This document shows, piece after piece, positions 1 to 54,274 of a stretch of 64,000 nucleotides of DNA. Origin of the DNA: Merismopedia glauca CCAP 1448/3 (GTDB lineage: Bacteria; Cyanobacteriota; Cyanobacteriia; Cyanobacteriales; CCAP-1448); contig NZ_PVWJ01000006.1 of the NCBI RefSeq assembly GCF_003003775.1, positions 1 through 64,000 on the forward strand, read 5' to 3'. A program made the translations under genes and the position numbers. Position 1 is the stretch's first letter. Each line of letters opens with the position of its first letter. The notes under the pieces are model-generated. The model was given only the letters and a program-made list of their open reading frames with translations. It was not told where the DNA came from and did no database searches.

Positions 1-1052
1 CCCACCACCCCCGTTACGACTAATCCCCCCAAAGCCGAGCCAAGAATCAAACAAGGCGCAAACAACCCTCCAGGCGCACCAGAACCATAAGCAATGGCAA
101 TCAGACAAAATTGGGAAATCAGAGCGATCGCCCGTAGTTGCCAATCCATGTTCCCAATCACCAAAACATCCTGTAACTCACTACTGCGGCGCAATAAGGG
201 AGGCAATAAAGCTATTATTACCCCTGTCATCCCACCAGCTAAAGCCATCCGCCAGGGTAATGTCCACGTTCGCAAGAAGTGGCGATTAATAGCTAGGCTA
301 GCGAGAATGCCGCGACTAAATAAACCGCCTAATAAACCAGCAATTAAACCTAAAACCAGCAAAAAAGGAATATCTACCACCGAAAAACTAGTATCTATCC
401 CATCTAACTCTGGAATTAGCCCCCTTCCCCCCAACAACCGCGAAACTACTCCTCCCACAAAAGCGGCTAAGATCGCAGTTCCCAAAGTGACATCAGATAA
501 ATCTTGCAATAACTCTTCAATCGCAAACAAGACCCCAGCAATAGGCGCATTAAACCCTGCGGCTAAGCCTGCTGCGGCTCCTGCTGCTAACAATTGACGG
601 CGATAAGCAGGTGAAGTTGCTGTCCAATTACTTAACTGTGCGGCTAAAGCGGCTCCAATTTGGACGGTTGGCCCTTGTCTGCCTAAAGCTAATCCAGAAC
701 CCAGAGATAAGCTGGTACTAACCAATTTCACCAAAGCTACTCGTAAATCGAGAGCAATAGGCACATAAGCTAGTGCAGCCTTAACTTGAGGAATCCCACT
801 CCCAGAAGCTTCCCTCGCCACTCGTTCGACTAACCATCCGCTTAATAATCCAGCAGCTATCCCAATTATGGGCAAAGCAATCCAGGGAAAAGTATATTCA
901 TTAACAGAACGCCGCCACATCTCTAGCCACATAATGCTATTTTTCAGCCAAACCGCCGCTAGAGCAGAGACTAGACCAATCGAGCAAGCTTCAAAAATTG
1001 CCCTAGATTTGGGACGTAACCACCGATGGAGCGCAAAGCGTTTGCCAGTCAA
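1..1052 (-). CDS. ClC-family chloride channel/antiporter, C-terminus cut by window edge
   Basis: An open frame on the minus strand runs off the left edge, so the C-terminus is missing. ClC proteins move chloride across the inner membrane as channels or Cl-/H+ exchangers. The translation shows the family motifs in order: GSGIPQVKAAL, then LGRQGPTVQIG, then GFNAPIAGVLFAIEEL, with hydrophobic helices throughout. The usual GREGP reads GRQGP here, so the external gating glutamate is replaced by glutamine. The later glutamates of FAIEEL are kept. The start is taken as TTG at 1052 because a stop lies two codons upstream and an AGAGGA-like site precedes it; no ATG is available until well inside the first helix. 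Family assignment is firm; exchanger versus channel mode is not known. Confidence 0.85.
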   Translation of the reverse strand, partial: MTGKRFALHRWLRPKSRAIFEACSIGLVSALAAVWLKNSIMWLEMWRRSVNEYTFPWIALPIIGIAAGLLSGWLVERVAREASGSGIPQVKAALAYVPIALDLRVALVKLVSTSLSLGSGLALGRQGPTVQIGAALAAQLSNWTATSPAYRRQLLAAGAAAGLAAGFNAPIAGVLFAIEELLQDLSDVTLGTAILAAFVGGVVSRLLGGRGLIPELDGIDTSFSVVDIPFLLVLGLIAGLLGGLFSRGILASLAINRHFLRTWTLPWRMALAGGMTGVIIALLPPLLRRSSELQDVLVIGNMDWQLRAIALISQFCLIAIAYGSGAPGGLFAPCLILGSALGGLVVTGVV

Positions 1053-46387: not shown

Positions 46388-47476
46388 CTATTGTCCTATT
46401 TTCACACCTCGATAGTAGTGGCGCAAAATCCGGTCATAGCTACTTCCTTGTAGGGCTAGTTTATACGCTCCCCACTGACTCAATCCTAACCCGTGACCGA
46501 AGCCGTTACCTTCGATAGTAAAGCCGCTATCGGTGGGAATTACTCTAAATTTAGTACTTCTCAACCCCAAACGTTCTCGTAATTGCACTCCCGTAAAGTA
46601 TTTAGAACTACCTACACCAACTACTTTCATTTTTAATACCCTTCCATAGGGACTACGACGGAGGGAAATAAATCTTTTGACATTACTTACACCCAACCTA
46701 CTGCTAACTTGACTGGGAGAGAATCTTTTAATCCACTGATAAGCTGGGGTATCTCGATCGTAATCGGGAACGCCACGCAAGTAGGGTAAAGAGTTTGACC
46801 AGACATTTTCTACGTTTTCGGTGTGTCCGCCCCCAGCAGCATGGAAAACGGCTAGAATTGGCTTGCCACTGTAGGTCATAATCTGGGAAGTAGTAGCGTT
46901 GACAGCTTCTTGAGTATTGAGAGATTCTGTATTTAAACCTTTATATACCTGCCAAATTACGGTATTTCCCATGTCAAATAAGGCACTGGGCGAGGTTTTG
47001 AGTTTATATAGGGTGTAGGTACGGGCGGCGACGGCTTGCGCTTTTAAAGCCTCTAGGGGCCAATGTGGATGCATTTCTGCGCCGATGACGCTGTAAAGAT
47101 ATTGCTCTAAATCGACGTTATTAATGGCAAATAAACCAGATTTAGTAGCTAATAATCTTACTTTTCCCCGATACCAGCCATTTCCAATCCAGACGTAACC
47201 GCCAGCTTCTGGTTCGATTAATAATTGGCTTCCTCGCCATTGTTTAAAAACTACTTTTCCGCCACGCAATTGTCCGAGAGAACTATCTAGAGGCGGAATT
47301 TTTCCCAAAATTCGCCCAGTGCGATCGCGCACAATCCCAGGAGTAGAGGTTCCCACTTTGATACTAGTTACTCTTTGGGCGATCGCTACTCGCAATAATC
47401 TGGCTGCTTGGCTGGGAATCGCCATCAACCACAGCCATCCAAGGGTTAATCCAAGTAAGCTAAGTCGGTTAAGCAT
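46388..47476 (-). CDS. SpoIID/LytB-domain protein, probable peptidoglycan amidase-like hydrolase
   Basis: With the start at 47476 the 362-residue precursor has a signal sequence (MLNRLSLLGLTLGWLWLMAI PSQA) and a SpoIID domain. SpoIID features are HPHWPLEALKAQAVAARTYT, the NATTSQIMTYSGKPILAVFH block followed by AAGGGHTENVENVW, and GFGHGLGLSQWGAYKLALQG. SpoIID homologues are lytic transglycosylases that act on denuded glycan. The frame extends 19 codons upstream to 47533, but that part is encoded by the adjacent GTAGGGT palindrome, so it is not used here. The gene ends 72 bp before an NTF2-like gene. Confidence 0.85.
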   Translation of the reverse strand: MLNRLSLLGLTLGWLWLMAIPSQAARLLRVAIAQRVTSIKVGTSTPGIVRDRTGRILGKIPPLDSSLGQLRGGKVVFKQWRGSQLLIEPEAGGYVWIGNGWYRGKVRLLATKSGLFAINNVDLEQYLYSVIGAEMHPHWPLEALKAQAVAARTYTLYKLKTSPSALFDMGNTVIWQVYKGLNTESLNTQEAVNATTSQIMTYSGKPILAVFHAAGGGHTENVENVWSNSLPYLRGVPDYDRDTPAYQWIKRFSPSQVSSRLGVSNVKRFISLRRSPYGRVLKMKVVGVGSSKYFTGVQLRERLGLRSTKFRVIPTDSGFTIEGNGFGHGLGLSQWGAYKLALQGSSYDRILRHYYRGVKIGQ

Positions 47477-47520
47477 GAGAAGGAAGAAGGAAAATCTAGA
47501 ATTACCCAGAGATATCATAG

Positions 47521-47545
47521 GTAGGGTAGGCATTGCCTACCCTAC
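47521..47545. repeat. Perfect GTAGGGT...ACCCTAC palindrome, copy 3
   Basis: The arms GTAGGGTAGGCA and TGCCTACCCTAC are separated by one base. It lies between the SpoIID gene and the SIMPL gene and matches 39804-39828 except at one complementary pair. Confidence 0.85.
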
Positions 47546-47556
47546 TCTACTGAAAA

Positions 47557-48384
47557 TTAGTCTTTGATGGGATATGTGACGAAGAGATCTCGACGAAGTT
47601 GCACTTCGGCGGGAGTATTGGGATTGTAAGGTGGTAACAGCCTTAAATCTCCATATCCTAGAGGTAAGGGGAGAGATTCACCAGTTTCTGTGACGCATAA
47701 AGGCACGACAATATCATAAAAGAAAGATTCTGAGACTGTAGGTACGTCACTGAGTTTAACCTTTAAAGAGGAGGCTATAGCTTCGGCCCGCAAGCGAGCA
47801 TCTTTGACAGCAGCTTGATAAGCTGCGGTAGTTAGTGCTTGACAGTCTTTGATGGCGTATCCAACATTGACAGTTTCTACCGATACTTTAGCTTTGTCTC
47901 TAGCAGCATCTTTTACCTGGTTGACGATGGTTTCCATCCGACTCCGAGTGGGTTTATCTACCTCGAAGATGATTTTAGGTTTCGTCGCACTAAACGGGAT
48001 GATGCTGGTGACATCAAGTTCCACTTTAATATCTTTAGCAGGTATACCCAGAGTTGCGATCGCATCTACAACTGGTTGTAAATTATCTTTCGTAATTGGT
48101 TTAGGAATAGGTAGAGGTAAGGTACTATCAGGCGCAGGTGGAGTTTGGCGAACGAAGGTAAATTCCAGACGTGCTTTATCTGCGGGGAGACGCACCTGTC
48201 CTTGACCAAAAACCTGAATCCCTTGGCGATCGCTCACTGGTGGATAATACAATTGAGCTGCTCTATCCGATTGACTACTTTCTCCAGAGTTTAAAGTCAG
48301 GTTTTTCGCCAAACTACTCGGACTCATCCAGGCGTTCATCGCGAAAATAGTCGTTACTAGAGGGAAGATGGATAGTTTTTTCAT
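47557..48384 (-). CDS. SIMPL-domain (DUF541) periplasmic protein
   Basis: With the start at 48384 the 275-residue precursor has a signal peptide (MKKLSIFPLVTTIFAMNAWM). The mature part has the SIMPL/DUF541 features GIQVFGQGQVRLPADKARLE, ALTTAAYQAAVKDARLRAEA and IASSLKVKLSDVPTVSE. Family members are periplasmic, of the BP26/YggE type, and link to oxidative stress in some bacteria. The GTAGGGT palindrome and the SpoIID gene follow on the same strand. The ORF opens eight codons earlier at 48408, but the ATG at 48384 directly precedes the signal peptide. Confidence 0.82.
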   Translation of the reverse strand: MKKLSIFPLVTTIFAMNAWMSPSSLAKNLTLNSGESSQSDRAAQLYYPPVSDRQGIQVFGQGQVRLPADKARLEFTFVRQTPPAPDSTLPLPIPKPITKDNLQPVVDAIATLGIPAKDIKVELDVTSIIPFSATKPKIIFEVDKPTRSRMETIVNQVKDAARDKAKVSVETVNVGYAIKDCQALTTAAYQAAVKDARLRAEAIASSLKVKLSDVPTVSESFFYDIVVPLCVTETGESLPLPLGYGDLRLLPPYNPNTPAEVQLRRDLFVTYPIKD

Positions 48385-48518
48385 TATTGGCAACTTATAG
48401 CTAATCAAAGTTATTCACATATTTAGCAGCGATCTTGCTCAATTGGCAAGTATAGACGCAATAAATTAACAATTTACTTTTGGGTGTAGATCCCTGACTT
48501 CTTGAATAAGTCAGGGAT

Positions 48519-48839
48519 CTACGTCCCCTTCAATTTATTAACTATTACTTCAGCAACCCATTCAGACAAAGTTAGATCGGAATCGGCGATCGCCAGATCT
48601 AGTTTTTCATCCCACTGTTTCGGAATTTTGAAGGTGCGAGTTTTACCCTTCCCAACACCAGTAAACAAGCCTTCATCATTGCGATCGCGCTGGCGTTTAT
48701 TTTCTCTTGGTTGTTCAGAAATTGCTTTATCTATGTCCCAACCCCGTTGTAACCGTTTATAAACCGTGGTTACTGAAATGCCATTTTTCTTGGCTAGAGC
48801 CAGTTTTTCTGGCGGAACTAATTTAGCAACTCTACCCAT
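48519..48839 (-). CDS. Small putative DNA-binding protein
   Basis: Starting at ATG 48839 the product has 106 residues. The N-terminal part (PEKLALAKKNGISVTTVYKR LQRGWDIDKAI) looks like a helix-turn-helix of the kind found in phage and plasmid small proteins, with a ribbon-like C-terminal part (RTFKIPKQWDEKLDLAIADS DLTLSEWVAEVIVNKL) resembling a ribbon-helix-helix. It is divergent from the vWA gene at 48979 by 139 bp, so it may regulate the triad, but this is only inferred from position. Confidence 0.55.
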   Translation of the reverse strand: MGRVAKLVPPEKLALAKKNGISVTTVYKRLQRGWDIDKAISEQPRENKRQRDRNDEGLFTGVGKGKTRTFKIPKQWDEKLDLAIADSDLTLSEWVAEVIVNKLKGT

Positions 48840-48978
48840 ATCTATCACAAACACTTGGTATTTTCTCAAAAATATATGATAACTTTAAAGTTTTATAATT
48901 TCTCAATCTCATCAAGAATAGTTTAATGGCTACCGGACAGGTAAAATGATGACAATTTACCTATATTAAAAAAAGATT

Positions 48979-49635
48979 GTGCCAGTAGGATTACCAGAAT
49001 TTGTTGAAAACCCCGAAAATCGTTGTCCTGTAGTCTTATTATTAGATACTTCTAGTTCAATGTCAGGGGAACCCATCGACGAACTAACTCGTGGGGTAAG
49101 CGTATTTAAAGAAGAAGTATTGAAGGATACGAAAGCTTCATTGAGTGTCGAGGTGGCGATCGCAACCTTTGGACCAGTAGAATTAGTCCAGGATTTCGTC
49201 ACCCTGCAAGAATTTACTCCCCCTACCCTAGAAGCAAACGGTCTAACTCCGATGGGTGCGGCGATTGAATATGGGATTGATTTGATTGAATCTCGCAAGG
49301 AGGTCTATAAAACCAACGGAATTCAGTATTATCGTCCTTGGATCTTCCTGATTACAGATGGTGCGCCTACCGATAGTTGGGAAAACGCGGCGCAAAGAGT
49401 CCGTCAAGGGGAGGCTGAAGGTAAGTTTTGTTTCTTTACTGTGGCGGTAGAAGGAGCAGATATGGACACTTTAAGGGAAATTAACGCCTTAGAACGCCCT
49501 CCGATCTTACTCAATGGCTTAGATTTTAAATCTCTATTTGTTTGGCTTAGTACCTCAATGAAAAGAGTTTCTAGTGCTAAAGTTGGAGAAATGTTGGCAC
49601 TACCGCCAGTTGGTTGGGGACAAATTACAACCTAA
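48979..49635 (+). CDS. vWA-domain protein (TerY-like)
   Basis: The 218-residue protein has one von Willebrand A domain. The MIDAS motif is complete: D-x-S-x-S in LLLDTSSSMSGEP near residue 23, the threonine in ANGLTPMGAAIEYGID, and the aspartate in IFLITDGAPTDSWEN. It most resembles the TerY/YegL branch, whose genes sit next to a PP2C phosphatase and a Ser/Thr kinase, exactly as here. It is likely a metal-dependent scaffold regulated by phosphorylation. The start is GTG 48979; there is no ATG nearby and no strong ribosome binding site. A 190-bp spacer with direct repeats separates it from the next gene. Confidence 0.9.
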   Translation: MPVGLPEFVENPENRCPVVLLLDTSSSMSGEPIDELTRGVSVFKEEVLKDTKASLSVEVAIATFGPVELVQDFVTLQEFTPPTLEANGLTPMGAAIEYGIDLIESRKEVYKTNGIQYYRPWIFLITDGAPTDSWENAAQRVRQGEAEGKFCFFTVAVEGADMDTLREINALERPPILLNGLDFKSLFVWLSTSMKRVSSAKVGEMLALPPVGWGQITT

Positions 49636-49639
49636 GCAG

Positions 49640-49745
49640 AGTTCGGAGAGACGTGATATATCGCATCTGTACAGGATTCGGAGAGACGTGATACATCGCG
49701 TCTGTACAGGAGTTTGGAGTATGCGCTACGCGCATACTACGCCAA
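49640..49745. repeat. Tandem direct repeats of a GAGACGTGATA unit
   Basis: Two tandem copies of a roughly 37-45-bp unit (TTCGGAGAGACGTGATA and CATCTGTACAGGA parts) are followed by a GCGCTACGCGCATACTACGCC palindrome-like segment. The unit is related to the GTAGAGACGT palindrome family. It splits the vWA gene from the PP2C gene, so the two may not be on one transcript. Confidence 0.7.
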
Positions 49746-49824
49746 GGGAGTTCGGGAAAATCAGGGATAATAAGGGTTTTATCCGCTCTCGGACTGAGGT
49801 TATCTAAGAAAAGGGATAATTTTT

Positions 49825-50610
49825 GTGGCTTGGAAAGCAGTAGCGCGATCGGCGATTGGCACTAGTCATCTGGAAAAGGGGTTACCATGTCAAGATTATG
49901 GGAGCGATCGCTTATTTTCTAATTTATTGATTGGAGCGGTAGCAGATGGGGCGGGAAGTGCTAAATATGCAGATATTGGCGCTAAAATCGCGGTAGAGGC
50001 GACTATCGCTCATATAGCTAAAACCGAGACTTATTTGGAGAAAATAGGTTGTTCTTGGCAAAACAGGCGATCGCCTCTATCTGAGTCTCAAGCGAAGCGT
50101 TTGTTTATCAGTAGTTTAAAACAGGTGACGAGCCAATTACAGCAACAGGCGACTCAGGGAAACTATCACGTGCAAGAATTGGCTTGTACTCTGATAGCTT
50201 TTATGGCGACTCCCAACTGGGTAGCAGCCATGCAAATTGGGGACGGGTTTTTGGCGATGCGTTTTGGATGGGATAAGGAGTATAAGTTAGCCTTTAAACC
50301 AGATAAAGGAGAATATATTAACCAAACCAATTTTGTCACCTCTGCTAACGTTTTAGCAGATATGCAAGTTAAAGTCTTTCCCCGTCGTCCTAAATTCCTC
50401 TGTGCGGCGACAGATGGGATAGAAAACGTGGCGATTAGGTTAAAAGATTGGTATCCCTCACCTGGATTTTTTAGCGTGTTGGAGCAGTATATGCGAGAAT
50501 GCGATCGCCCTCATGAGGAAGATGATTACCTCGTGAATTTGCTCAATTCCAAGGAACTCAATCAACGTACCAATGACGATAAAACCTTGCTATTATGCCT
50601 CTACAATTAG
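49825..50610 (+). CDS. PP2C-family Ser/Thr protein phosphatase
   Basis: The 261-residue protein starts at GTG 49825, preceded by AAGGGA. It opens with WKAVARSAIGTSHLEKGLPC, then the metal-binding motif GAVADGAGSAKYADIGAKIA, followed by a central helix, AMQIGDGFLAMR and the final AATDGIEN motif. Metal-coordinating aspartates are conserved (DGAGS, GDG, TDG). It is a single PP2C domain without a sensor, unlike SpoIIE types. It should remove phosphate placed by the adjacent kinase. It overlaps the kinase gene by 16 bp, so the two are translationally coupled. Confidence 0.9.
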   Translation: MAWKAVARSAIGTSHLEKGLPCQDYGSDRLFSNLLIGAVADGAGSAKYADIGAKIAVEATIAHIAKTETYLEKIGCSWQNRRSPLSESQAKRLFISSLKQVTSQLQQQATQGNYHVQELACTLIAFMATPNWVAAMQIGDGFLAMRFGWDKEYKLAFKPDKGEYINQTNFVTSANVLADMQVKVFPRRPKFLCAATDGIENVAIRLKDWYPSPGFFSVLEQYMRECDRPHEEDDYLVNLLNSKELNQRTNDDKTLLLCLYN

Positions 50611-52106
50611 CTACTGAGTCGAAAGTTCTGACTTGCTCTAGCACTGGTCAATCTATCTCTTTGATCAAGCAGTTAGCCACTAGTGGTGAAGGAGAAGTTT
50701 GGCGTACCAACATAGCTGGATATTTGGCTAAGATCTATCACCATCCTGACTCCCAACGGATTCGCAAGTTAGAGGTGATGATCGCCAATCCCCCCCAAGA
50801 TCCCAATGCTCAAATCAAGCATACATCGTTTGCTTGGCCCAAATCTTTACTGAGAGATGAAAGAGGGCAATCTATCGGCTTCCTGATGCCGCAAATAGTC
50901 GATAGCGTGGAAATTCTAGATGTATATAACCCCAGACGCAGACAAGCAGTTGTCCCTGGATTTAATTGGTTATATTTACACGCCACTGCGGTGAATATTG
51001 CTTCCATTATCGCCGCTATTCATCGAGCAGGTTATGTTTTAGGAGATATCAAACCCCAAAATATCTTAGTTAATAATCAGGCTTTAGCTTCAATCATTGA
51101 TACCGATTCTTTTCAGGTAAAAGACTCAGAAACTCAAGCTATTTATCGCTGTCCGGTGGGTTCCGAAGGATTTACCCCACCAGAACTATTAGGTCAAGAT
51201 TTAGCCACTACAGATCAAACGGAAATTCACGATCGCTTTCGGTTGGGAGTGATTATCTACTTACTTCTGTTTGGCGATCATCCTTTTAAGGGTAAATGGG
51301 TCGGAAAAGGCGATTCTCCTGAACCTCATCAACTTTTACGTCAAGGATTTTGGCCCTATGGTATGAATAGTTTAATTCAACCAGGACCATTAACGATCCC
51401 ATTAGATACCGTTCATCCAGAACTGCAAAAGTGTTTTCAGCGTTGTTTCACAGACGGACACGCGCACCCAGAATTACGTCCTAGCGCCCAAAAGTGGTTT
51501 AGTACTTTACAATTAGCCCTCAAAGAACTAAAAGTCTGTCGCAAAAACCCCAGACATTACCACAGCGAAAGTTATGGTAAATGCTATTGGTGCGATCGCC
51601 AACGACAGCTAGGTGTTGATATTTTCCCCAGAGAACTTAATTGGCTGGAAACTAAGTCTAAAACCCTGTCAAATCGCTTTAAAAGAACCGTTAAAAAGAC
51701 GAATATTAAAGCAGCAAAATTGCAGAAGCGGCAAAAATTGACTCCAACACTAAACTTGGCTCAATTAATCTCTAAAGCTTCAATATCTGTCCCTAAATTC
51801 AGTCAACCAGGCAAATTGGCACCAAAAGCCGCATTATCAGCTTCTTCTCCAGGATTGGGAACATCTAACGGCTTCAAGTCTCCCACACTACAGGGTCAAG
51901 GCGTAACGGACAACAAACTATTGATATGGGGCTTAGCCAGCTTTTTTGCCCTATCTGGTCTAATTATAGCCTTAATTAATTTAGTCGGTGACGTAGAGAT
52001 GAGCGATCGCCAGTGGGGATCGACCATGTTTGCGATTGCGATCGGTTTAGGATTGTTGGGGATGGCGGGTTTATTGTTGAAGTGGACGAGAAGCGAAAAT
52101 CTCTAG
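50595..52106 (+). CDS. Membrane-anchored Ser/Thr protein kinase (YegI-like)
   Basis: The 503-residue protein has a kinase domain whose landmarks are the VAIK-type lysine K46 in GYLAKIYHHPD, the catalytic loop GYVLGDIKPQNILVNN (D151, N156), and DTDSFQV in place of DFG (D169). The domain is followed by a Cys-rich segment CRKNPRHYHSESYGKCYWC that may bind zinc, a basic linker, and two C-terminal helices (LLIWGLASFFALSGLIIALI and MFAIAIGLGLLGMAGLLLKW) anchoring it in the membrane. The YegI-type kinases of vWA-PP2C-kinase triads share this layout. It overlaps the PP2C gene and ends a clear three-gene set. Confidence 0.9.
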   Translation: MPLQLATESKVLTCSSTGQSISLIKQLATSGEGEVWRTNIAGYLAKIYHHPDSQRIRKLEVMIANPPQDPNAQIKHTSFAWPKSLLRDERGQSIGFLMPQIVDSVEILDVYNPRRRQAVVPGFNWLYLHATAVNIASIIAAIHRAGYVLGDIKPQNILVNNQALASIIDTDSFQVKDSETQAIYRCPVGSEGFTPPELLGQDLATTDQTEIHDRFRLGVIIYLLLFGDHPFKGKWVGKGDSPEPHQLLRQGFWPYGMNSLIQPGPLTIPLDTVHPELQKCFQRCFTDGHAHPELRPSAQKWFSTLQLALKELKVCRKNPRHYHSESYGKCYWCDRQRQLGVDIFPRELNWLETKSKTLSNRFKRTVKKTNIKAAKLQKRQKLTPTLNLAQLISKASISVPKFSQPGKLAPKAALSASSPGLGTSNGFKSPTLQGQGVTDNKLLIWGLASFFALSGLIIALINLVGDVEMSDRQWGSTMFAIAIGLGLLGMAGLLLKWTRSENL

Positions 52107-52108
52107 AA

Positions 52109-52207
52109 AAAGTCAGAAGTAGGGGCGCAACGCGTTGCGCCCGTACAGAAGTCAGAAGTTAAAACCAGTTGCTTGAATGGTTCTAGTCTGATCGAGTGTC
52201 CTAACCT
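52109..52207 (+). repeat. Composite GAAGTCA/palindrome repeat (copy B)
   Basis: An AAAGTCAGAAGTAG arm is followed by a palindrome GGGCGCAACGCGTTGCGCCC, then GTACAGAAGTCAGAAGTTAA and a conserved segment ending GTGTCCTAACC. The right arm matches copy A at 37985-38094, but the palindrome is different. Confidence 0.8.
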
Positions 52208-52357
52208 CGATCGGAAGCTAGCTCGGTTACTGTAATTATCATTGATTTTGCCACTTTCGATACTGGCGAAAAGGTGAAGGCACCCAAGCCCCTCAAACGA
52301 AAACTCAAAAAACTTCGCAAGGCACAGCTAAAATGAGACAAGAGTCCACTTAGGAAC

Positions 52358-54274
52358 ATGACCATTACCTCCTCTCTCGATTTTCAAGACGCTTTCGATG
52401 TAGTAGTTGTTGGTGCAGGACATTCTGGCTGCGAAGCCGCCCTAGCTGCTGCGCGCCTGGGTTGTCGTACTCTGATGCTAACCTTAAACTTAGATAAAAT
52501 TGGTTGGCAACCTTGCAATCCGGCGGTGGGAGGACCAGCTAAATCCCAATTAACCCACGAAGTAGATGCTTTGGGGGGAGAAATTGGCAAAATGGCAGAT
52601 CGCACTTACTTGCAAAAACGAGTCCTGAATTCTTCTCGTGGTCCTGCGGTATGGGCGTTGCGGGCGCAGACAGATAAGCGGGAATATAGCGCCGTTATGA
52701 AGGATATTGTCCAAAACCAAGAAAACCTCACCATTCGGGAAGGGATGGTCACAGATTTGGTTTTAGGGGCAAATGATGAAGTTTTAGGCGTACAAACCTA
52801 CTTCGGTGTCAACTTCCAATGTCAAGCTGTAATTCTCACAACTGGGACATTTTTGGGTGGCAGAATTTGGGTTGGGGATAAATCGATGGAAGCCGGACGG
52901 GCGGGGGAATTTGCCGCTACTGGCTTAACTGAAACCCTTCAGCGCTTGGGTTTTGAAACTGGAAGGCTGAAAACTGGAACCCCAGCTAGGGTAGATAAGC
53001 GATCGGTAGATTATACCAAGATGGAACCCCAACCAGGCGATCCAGAAGTACGCTGGTTCAGCTTCGATCCAGAAGTTTGGGTAGAAAAAGAGCAAATGAA
53101 CTGCTATTTAACCCGTACTACTGCTGAAACACACAGATTAATTCGAGAGAATCTGCATCTGTCTCCAGTTTACGGCGGTTGGGTGGATGCCAAAGGTCCT
53201 CGGTACTGTCCTAGTATTGAAGATAAAATTGTCCGGTTTACGGATAAGGAAAGTCACCAAATATTTATTGAACCAGAAGGGCGAGATATTCCTGAGTTGT
53301 ATATTCAAGGTTTTTCGACAGGATTGCCAGAAAATTTGCAACTACAGATGCTCCGCACTCTTCCAGGTCTAGAAAAATGCGCTATGCTACGTCCAGCTTA
53401 TGCGGTAGAATATGATTATCTACCCGCTACCCAGTGTTATCCTACTTTGATGACCAAGAAGATTTATGGGTTATTCTGTGCGGGACAGGTAAATGGAACC
53501 ACTGGGTATGAAGAAGCCGCAGCGCAAGGGATTGTGGCGGGAATTAACGCAGCTAGGTTAGCCAAAGGGAAAGAGGCGATCGTCTTTGCCAGAGAAGAAA
53601 GTTATATCGGGACACTGATTGACGATCTGTGTACCAAAGACTTACGGGAACCATATCGGATGCTAACTAGCAGATCTGAGTATAGACTGTTGCTGCGATC
53701 GGATAATGCTGACAGACGACTCACACCCCTCGGAAGAGAAATTGGGTTAGTCAGCGATCGCCTTTGGAACATCTTCCAAACCAAACAAGAGCAAATCGCT
53801 GCGGAAATCGAACGCCTCCATTCTACCAGAATCAAAGAACGAGACGAACGAGCGCAGCAAATCGCCGCTCATACCCAACAAGCGATCAAAAATTCCATTT
53901 CTCTAGCGGAATTGCTCAAACGTCCAGCAATTCACTATGTAGATCTGGAACTGTATGGCTTGGGTAATCCTGAATCAACCCCCGCAGTCAAAGAAGTTGC
54001 CGAAATTGAAATCAAATATGCAGGATATTTACATCGCCAACAGCAACAAATTGACCAAGTTGCTCGTCAAACTCAGCGTCCCCTACCGCCAGATCTAGAC
54101 TACTGTGCGATTGAAACTCTCTCTAAAGAAGCGAGAGAAAAATTGACACAAGTCAAACCCTTGACTATTGGACAAGCTACGCGCATTGGCGGTGTTAATC
54201 CAGCCGATATCAATGCATTATTGATCTATTTAGAGTTAAACTATCGCAAGTCAATCATGAAGTCAGAGGTATAG
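52358..54274 (+). CDS. mnmG: tRNA uridine-5-carboxymethylaminomethyl enzyme MnmG (GidA)
   Basis: The 638-residue FAD enzyme with MnmE modifies U34 of tRNAs reading NNA/NNG codons. The nucleotide-binding motif [21 protein letters not shown] is complete. It is followed by the GidA signature [34 protein letters not shown], and a C-terminal helical domain. MnmG is highly conserved and full length here. The start ATG at 52358 follows AGGAAC. The stop at 54274 ends a single-gene transcript by appearance; MnmE is not in the window. Confidence 0.96.

Follow-up and report, generated by a model that had tools for sequence, protein, structure and literature searches.

A predicted Yeg-type vWA–PP2C–kinase triad in Merismopedia glauca and its relatives across cyanobacteria

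Introduction

In E. coli K-12, a vWA protein, a PP2C phosphatase and a Ser/Thr kinase are encoded, in this order, by yegL, pphC (also yegK) and yegI, with yegJ lying between pphC and yegI. Work cited in PMC13232886 describes YegI as a membrane-bound kinase capable of autophosphorylation and as a target of dephosphorylation by PphC; conditions that induce these genes are not known (PMC13232886). More broadly, the combination of a vWA protein, a PP2C phosphatase and a Ser/Thr kinase with a zinc ribbon has been described as the TerY-P triad (PMC11090510), of which one form resides on ter plasmids such as pKOX3 of Klebsiella oxytoca. Others are associated with CoCoNuT systems or stand alone as anti-phage modules, again with a TerY-like vWA protein, a PP2C phosphatase and a Ser/Thr kinase bearing a C-terminal zinc ribbon (PMC11090510). 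For cyanobacterial triad members, we found no experiments in the literature.

Here, we describe a triad from Merismopedia glauca CCAP 1448/3, contained in a stretch of 64,000 nt (contig NZ_PVWJ01000006.1, positions 1 to 64,000; hereafter, the window), and compare it with these systems and with related loci in other genomes.

Results

Gene organization of the triad

An ORF check placed the three genes next to each other on one strand, with the PP2C and kinase genes overlapping by 16 bp, and Pfam assigned their domains (VWA, 4e-9, 37.4 bits, above cut-off; PP2C_2, 4e-47; Pkinase, 3e-12), in full agreement with a preliminary description of the locus (Table 1). All three proteins have retained the residues expected of active or metal-binding family members, namely the MIDAS motif (DTSSS...T...D) of the vWA protein, the metal-binding Asp residues of the phosphatase, and K46, D151, N156 and D169 of the kinase, each of which is conserved in relatives. 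Sequence searches for relatives of solved structure (E 0.01) returned none for the vWA protein or the phosphatase, and general protein kinases only for the kinase.

Table 1. Features of the triad locus (positions refer to the window, residues to the kinase protein)
Feature	Position	Strand	Remarks
Small orphan gene	48519–48839 (or –48869)	–	no domain model above cut-off
YegL-like vWA gene	48979–49635	+	218 aa, GTG start; soluble; no extra domain (no TerY_C)
vWA–PP2C spacer	49636–49824		189 bp; two dispersed palindromic repeat copies and a perfect hairpin
PphC-like PP2C_2 phosphatase gene	49825–50610	+	261 aa, GTG start
YegI-like Ser/Thr kinase gene	50595–52106	+	503 aa, ATG start
Kinase domain	residues ~10–310		
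Zinc-ribbon motif	C315-H321-C330-x-x-C333		C-x5-H-x8-C-x2-C, directly after the kinase domain
Disordered linker	residues ~360–440		
C-terminal transmembrane hairpin	residues 441–465 / 471–501		two hydrophobic helices

The spacer between the vWA and PP2C genes contains two copies (49645–49710) of the palindromic repeat GGAGAGACGTGATAYATCGCRTCT, which has 32 strand matches genome-wide when up to 2 mismatches are allowed (0 in a reversed control), and it folds better than shuffled versions of itself (z –5.6). As the corresponding spacer is much shorter in most relatives, its content is probably an insertion rather than a conserved regulatory element. An Rfam search of positions 47000–53000 gave no match, and sigma-70-like and terminator-like sites did not exceed the level found in shuffled sequence. 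Given the length of this spacer and its hairpins, co-transcription of all three genes in the window is not assured.

The kinase combines a constant core with an exchangeable tail

Classical kinases carry an HRD motif in the catalytic loop. In the window kinase this motif reads LGD, making it a non-RD kinase. Its AlphaFold model has pLDDT values above 90 over residues 11–340 (in blocks of ten) and contains both C-terminal hydrophobic helices, which supports the membrane anchoring proposed for this protein in the preliminary description. When the model was used in a fold search, the best matches were protein kinases (Z 21.3, 3.5 Å over 259 residues), a comparison that barely tested the ribbon and the tail.

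The zinc-ribbon pattern was present in all 81 kinases compared (the 80 from related loci plus that of the window). The kinase–ribbon core was constant and the tail variable. Cyanobacterial triads were separated by a score cut-off into two classes, A (including the window) and B. WD40 repeats formed the tail in 18 of 37 class A kinases, while other kinases ended in TPRs (L046, L079), pentapeptide repeats (L077) or many membrane spans (L069); inspection of the sequences by eye added PQQ-type repeats (L015) and a domain resembling the formylglycine-generating enzyme (L016). The WD40- and TPR-tailed kinases of classes A and B share core, ribbon, partners and gene order with the window. Unlike them, the window kinase carries nothing but a transmembrane hairpin after its linker, and this bare hairpin aligns with the tails of five relatives (L041, L042, L044, L045 and L064). 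Interchangeable tails attached to an invariant core point to the tail as the putative source of the input.

Conservation of the triad across genomes

Of 117 genomes chosen to sample the phylum, 35 contained a relative of the kinase (E 1e-20). In most of the loci retrieved (with 1.5 kb flanks), the DNA directly upstream of the kinase gene encoded a PP2C protein and often a vWA protein, and most loci of this set showed the triad order. In a second set, 63 of 80 related loci kept the vWA, PP2C and kinase genes in this order and on one strand, which is far beyond chance. The preliminary description had named the neighbourhood of homologues in other cyanobacteria as its own check, and the outcome favours the triad reading. 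Similar triads were also found in genomes labelled Verrucomicrobia and Deltaproteobacteria, and pairs of PP2C and kinase genes in Planctomycetota and Armatimonadetes.

Among the 75 loci with more than 2.5 kb of sequence upstream of the kinase match, 61 held a complete triad, 10 the kinase alone, three a PP2C and a kinase gene, and one a vWA and a kinase gene. Since ten kinases stand alone and another four lack one partner, the kinase can apparently work without partners nearby. No vWA or PP2C gene was seen in the examined DNA around seven class A kinases (L042, L067, L068, L070, L071, L075 and L077).

Classes A and B were recovered nearly intact in the trees of all three genes, with class A staying together save for one or two proteins that the cut-off had placed in B; this fits inheritance or duplication of the triad as a whole. 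Pairwise protein distances across 58 complete triads were correlated at r 0.93–0.95 (0.85–0.98 within each class), a value that includes a share of plain vertical descent, as it carries no species-tree control.

These data bear on the possibility that the three genes are mere neighbours, with the kinase serving other partners and no functional unit between them. The kinase-only loci (10 of 75) and the repeat-bearing 189-bp spacer of the window would fit such an arrangement. The strict order in 63 of 80 loci, which span several phyla and are matched by E. coli, the correlated divergence of the three proteins and the 16-bp gene overlap all speak against it, and we regard it as very unlikely.

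Neighbouring genes

Outside the triad, no gene was common to the window and the 80 related loci. The flanks differ even from those of Cyanosarcina radialis (L041), the closest relative and apparently a member of the family to which the genome of the window belongs. In other genomes, recurring neighbours of class A triads were mostly lineage-bound. Five class A loci have a RelA/SpoT gene immediately preceding the vWA gene on the same strand, as identified by Pfam in L047 (3899–6160) and by similarity in L052, L055, L065 and L072. Class B triads (L084:4025–16367 and similar loci), found in many heterocystous cyanobacteria, are located beside genes for a nucleotidyltransferase, an FAD oxidoreductase, an epimerase and a glycosyltransferase, and opposite a gene for a DUF4388-receiver protein.

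The small gene divergent from the triad had been described as putatively DNA-binding, a suggestion left unsupported by the domain models, none of which scored above cut-off. Relatives of this gene were absent both from 39 related genomes and from the surroundings of the 80 related triads; it is therefore not part of the triad system and was rejected as a candidate regulator. Between it and a SIMPL-family gene, we noted a hairpin (48482–48526; GTAGATCCCTGACTT..AAGTCAGGGATCTAC) with a stem of ~19 bp and three copies in the genome.

The triad is closer to the Yeg set than to plasmid TerY-P proteins

All three proteins were closer to E. coli K-12 YegL, PphC and YegI (51%, 30% and 33% identity; E 2e-70, 5e-33 and 4e-44) than to the vWA, PP2C and kinase proteins of the ter plasmid pKOX3 (33%, 27% over a partial alignment, and 21.5%; E 3e-24, 1e-7 and 4e-15). 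The Yeg alignments span nearly the full vWA and PP2C proteins, as well as the whole kinase domain plus ribbon. Like its E. coli counterpart, the window has the vWA–PP2C–kinase order, a single vWA protein without TerY_C, a C-H-CxWC ribbon following the kinase domain, a non-RD kinase with transmembrane segments, and no Ter genes nearby. The two loci differ in that yegJ has no counterpart between the PP2C and kinase genes of the window, that YegI reads GDVNQN where the window kinase reads GDIKPQN, and that YegI continues into a further region with a weak HhH match, whereas the window kinase ends after its transmembrane hairpin.

The pKOX3 locus (L121) likewise has adjacent vWA, PP2C_2 and kinase genes and a Cys-rich segment after the kinase domain. 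Its gene order (vWA, TerD, vWA, vWA with TerY_C, PP2C, kinase) is different, however, with three vWA proteins, one of them bearing TerY_C, a TerD gene among them and a PP2C protein of 577 aa. Pfam detected TerY_C (PF15616) in the plasmid vWA protein and not in that of the window.

Taken by these sequence features, the window holds a Yeg-type triad, with its gene order on one strand and a kinase combining an LGD/VGD-type loop, a CxWC zinc ribbon and a membrane segment. It also has the vWA, PP2C and kinase genes, and the ribbon following the kinase domain, of a TerY-P triad in the wide sense of PMC11090510, and in that sense is one. The TerY-P label of the preliminary description therefore holds for the broad vWA–PP2C–kinase combination, and does not extend to TerY proper, given the identities of 51/30/33% to the Yeg set vs. 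33/27/21.5% to the plasmid set.

Tellurium-resistance genes

The reported lack of TerC- or TerD-type genes at the locus was borne out: the neighbouring genes that we inspected included none, a whole-genome search detected no TerD gene, and the sole TerC-family gene of the genome lies on another contig. Across the 117 genomes of the phylum, TerD occurred in 8 of 35 with the triad kinase and in 14 of 82 without it (p = 0.45). Where a genome had both, triad and TerD were on different contigs or ~390 kb or more apart, and never adjacent. Triad and TerD thus occur independently in this phylum, and a triad without Ter genes is the normal case; membership in the Yeg branch makes this unsurprising, too.

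That the triad is part of a tellurite or TerD-linked metal-stress response, whose Ter partners were lost or became separated, could draw on the plasmid TerY, PP2C and kinase proteins being distant homologues (33% identity for the vWA protein, 21.5% for the kinase). With a genome devoid of TerD, no linkage over 117 genomes, a much closer Yeg branch and no TerY_C domain, we consider this scarcely credible and rejected the link to tellurite genes.

Comparison with anti-phage TerY-P modules

Defence modules of the TerY-P type, such as the systems tested in Pseudomonas and those tested by Gao et al., combine the same three activities (PMC7699616; PMC10889362), and TerY-P kinases linked to CoCoNuT systems also end in a zinc ribbon (PMC11090510). 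Trichormus variabilis, moreover, has a related triad on a conjugative plasmid, where an integrase and an HNH endonuclease are encoded no more than ~6 kb away. The triad might accordingly be read as a module that phosphorylates host or phage proteins upon infection. In a PADLOC search at E 0.1, neither the vWA nor the PP2C protein of the window was matched, although the library includes the TerY model PDLC02224 (no known anti-phage TerY-P served as positive control for this model), and the kinase matched generic kinase models only; the locus was consequently rejected as an anti-phage TerY-P system by PADLOC. In contrast to the CoCoNuT-associated and stand-alone anti-phage modules, the window has a vWA protein outside the TerY model and no recognised restriction or CoCoNuT gene adjoining the triad. 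Across genera, class A triads lacked a recurring neighbour family other than RelA/SpoT. An anti-phage role is possible, is not supported by the family models, and in our estimate is unlikely.

Discussion

Our comparison places a widespread cyanobacterial triad in the same family as E. coli YegL/PphC/YegI. By homology, the window triad should undergo the same phosphorylation and dephosphorylation as the E. coli proteins, which makes a phosphorylation switch plausible. We consider it probable that the cyanobacterial triad is a membrane-based switch working through reversible phosphorylation. In this model, the C-terminal hairpin would tether the kinase at the inner face of a membrane, with the zinc ribbon positioned directly after the kinase domain. 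The kinase would autophosphorylate and, being non-RD (LGD for HRD), might not necessarily require phosphorylation of its activation loop. It would also phosphorylate a partner, for which the likeliest candidates are the metal-binding vWA protein and whatever that protein brings in, and the PP2C protein would take the phosphates off again. The vWA protein as putative substrate or adaptor is the natural reading of this arrangement; as with the activity of the cyanobacterial proteins themselves, we infer this role, as well as that of the zinc ribbon or tail as a sensing or docking part.

More tentatively, the vWA–PP2C–kinase core could be a general phosphorylation cassette, in which the exchangeable kinase tail sets the input and one output is wired to many signals; the hairpin form might then sense the membrane itself.

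If studied in a laboratory cyanobacterium, such a conserved unit of three genes would allow substrate and signal to be found by clean deletions combined with phosphoproteomics. The varied kinase tails, for their part, may serve as a set of natural variants in which a single core is coupled to different inputs.
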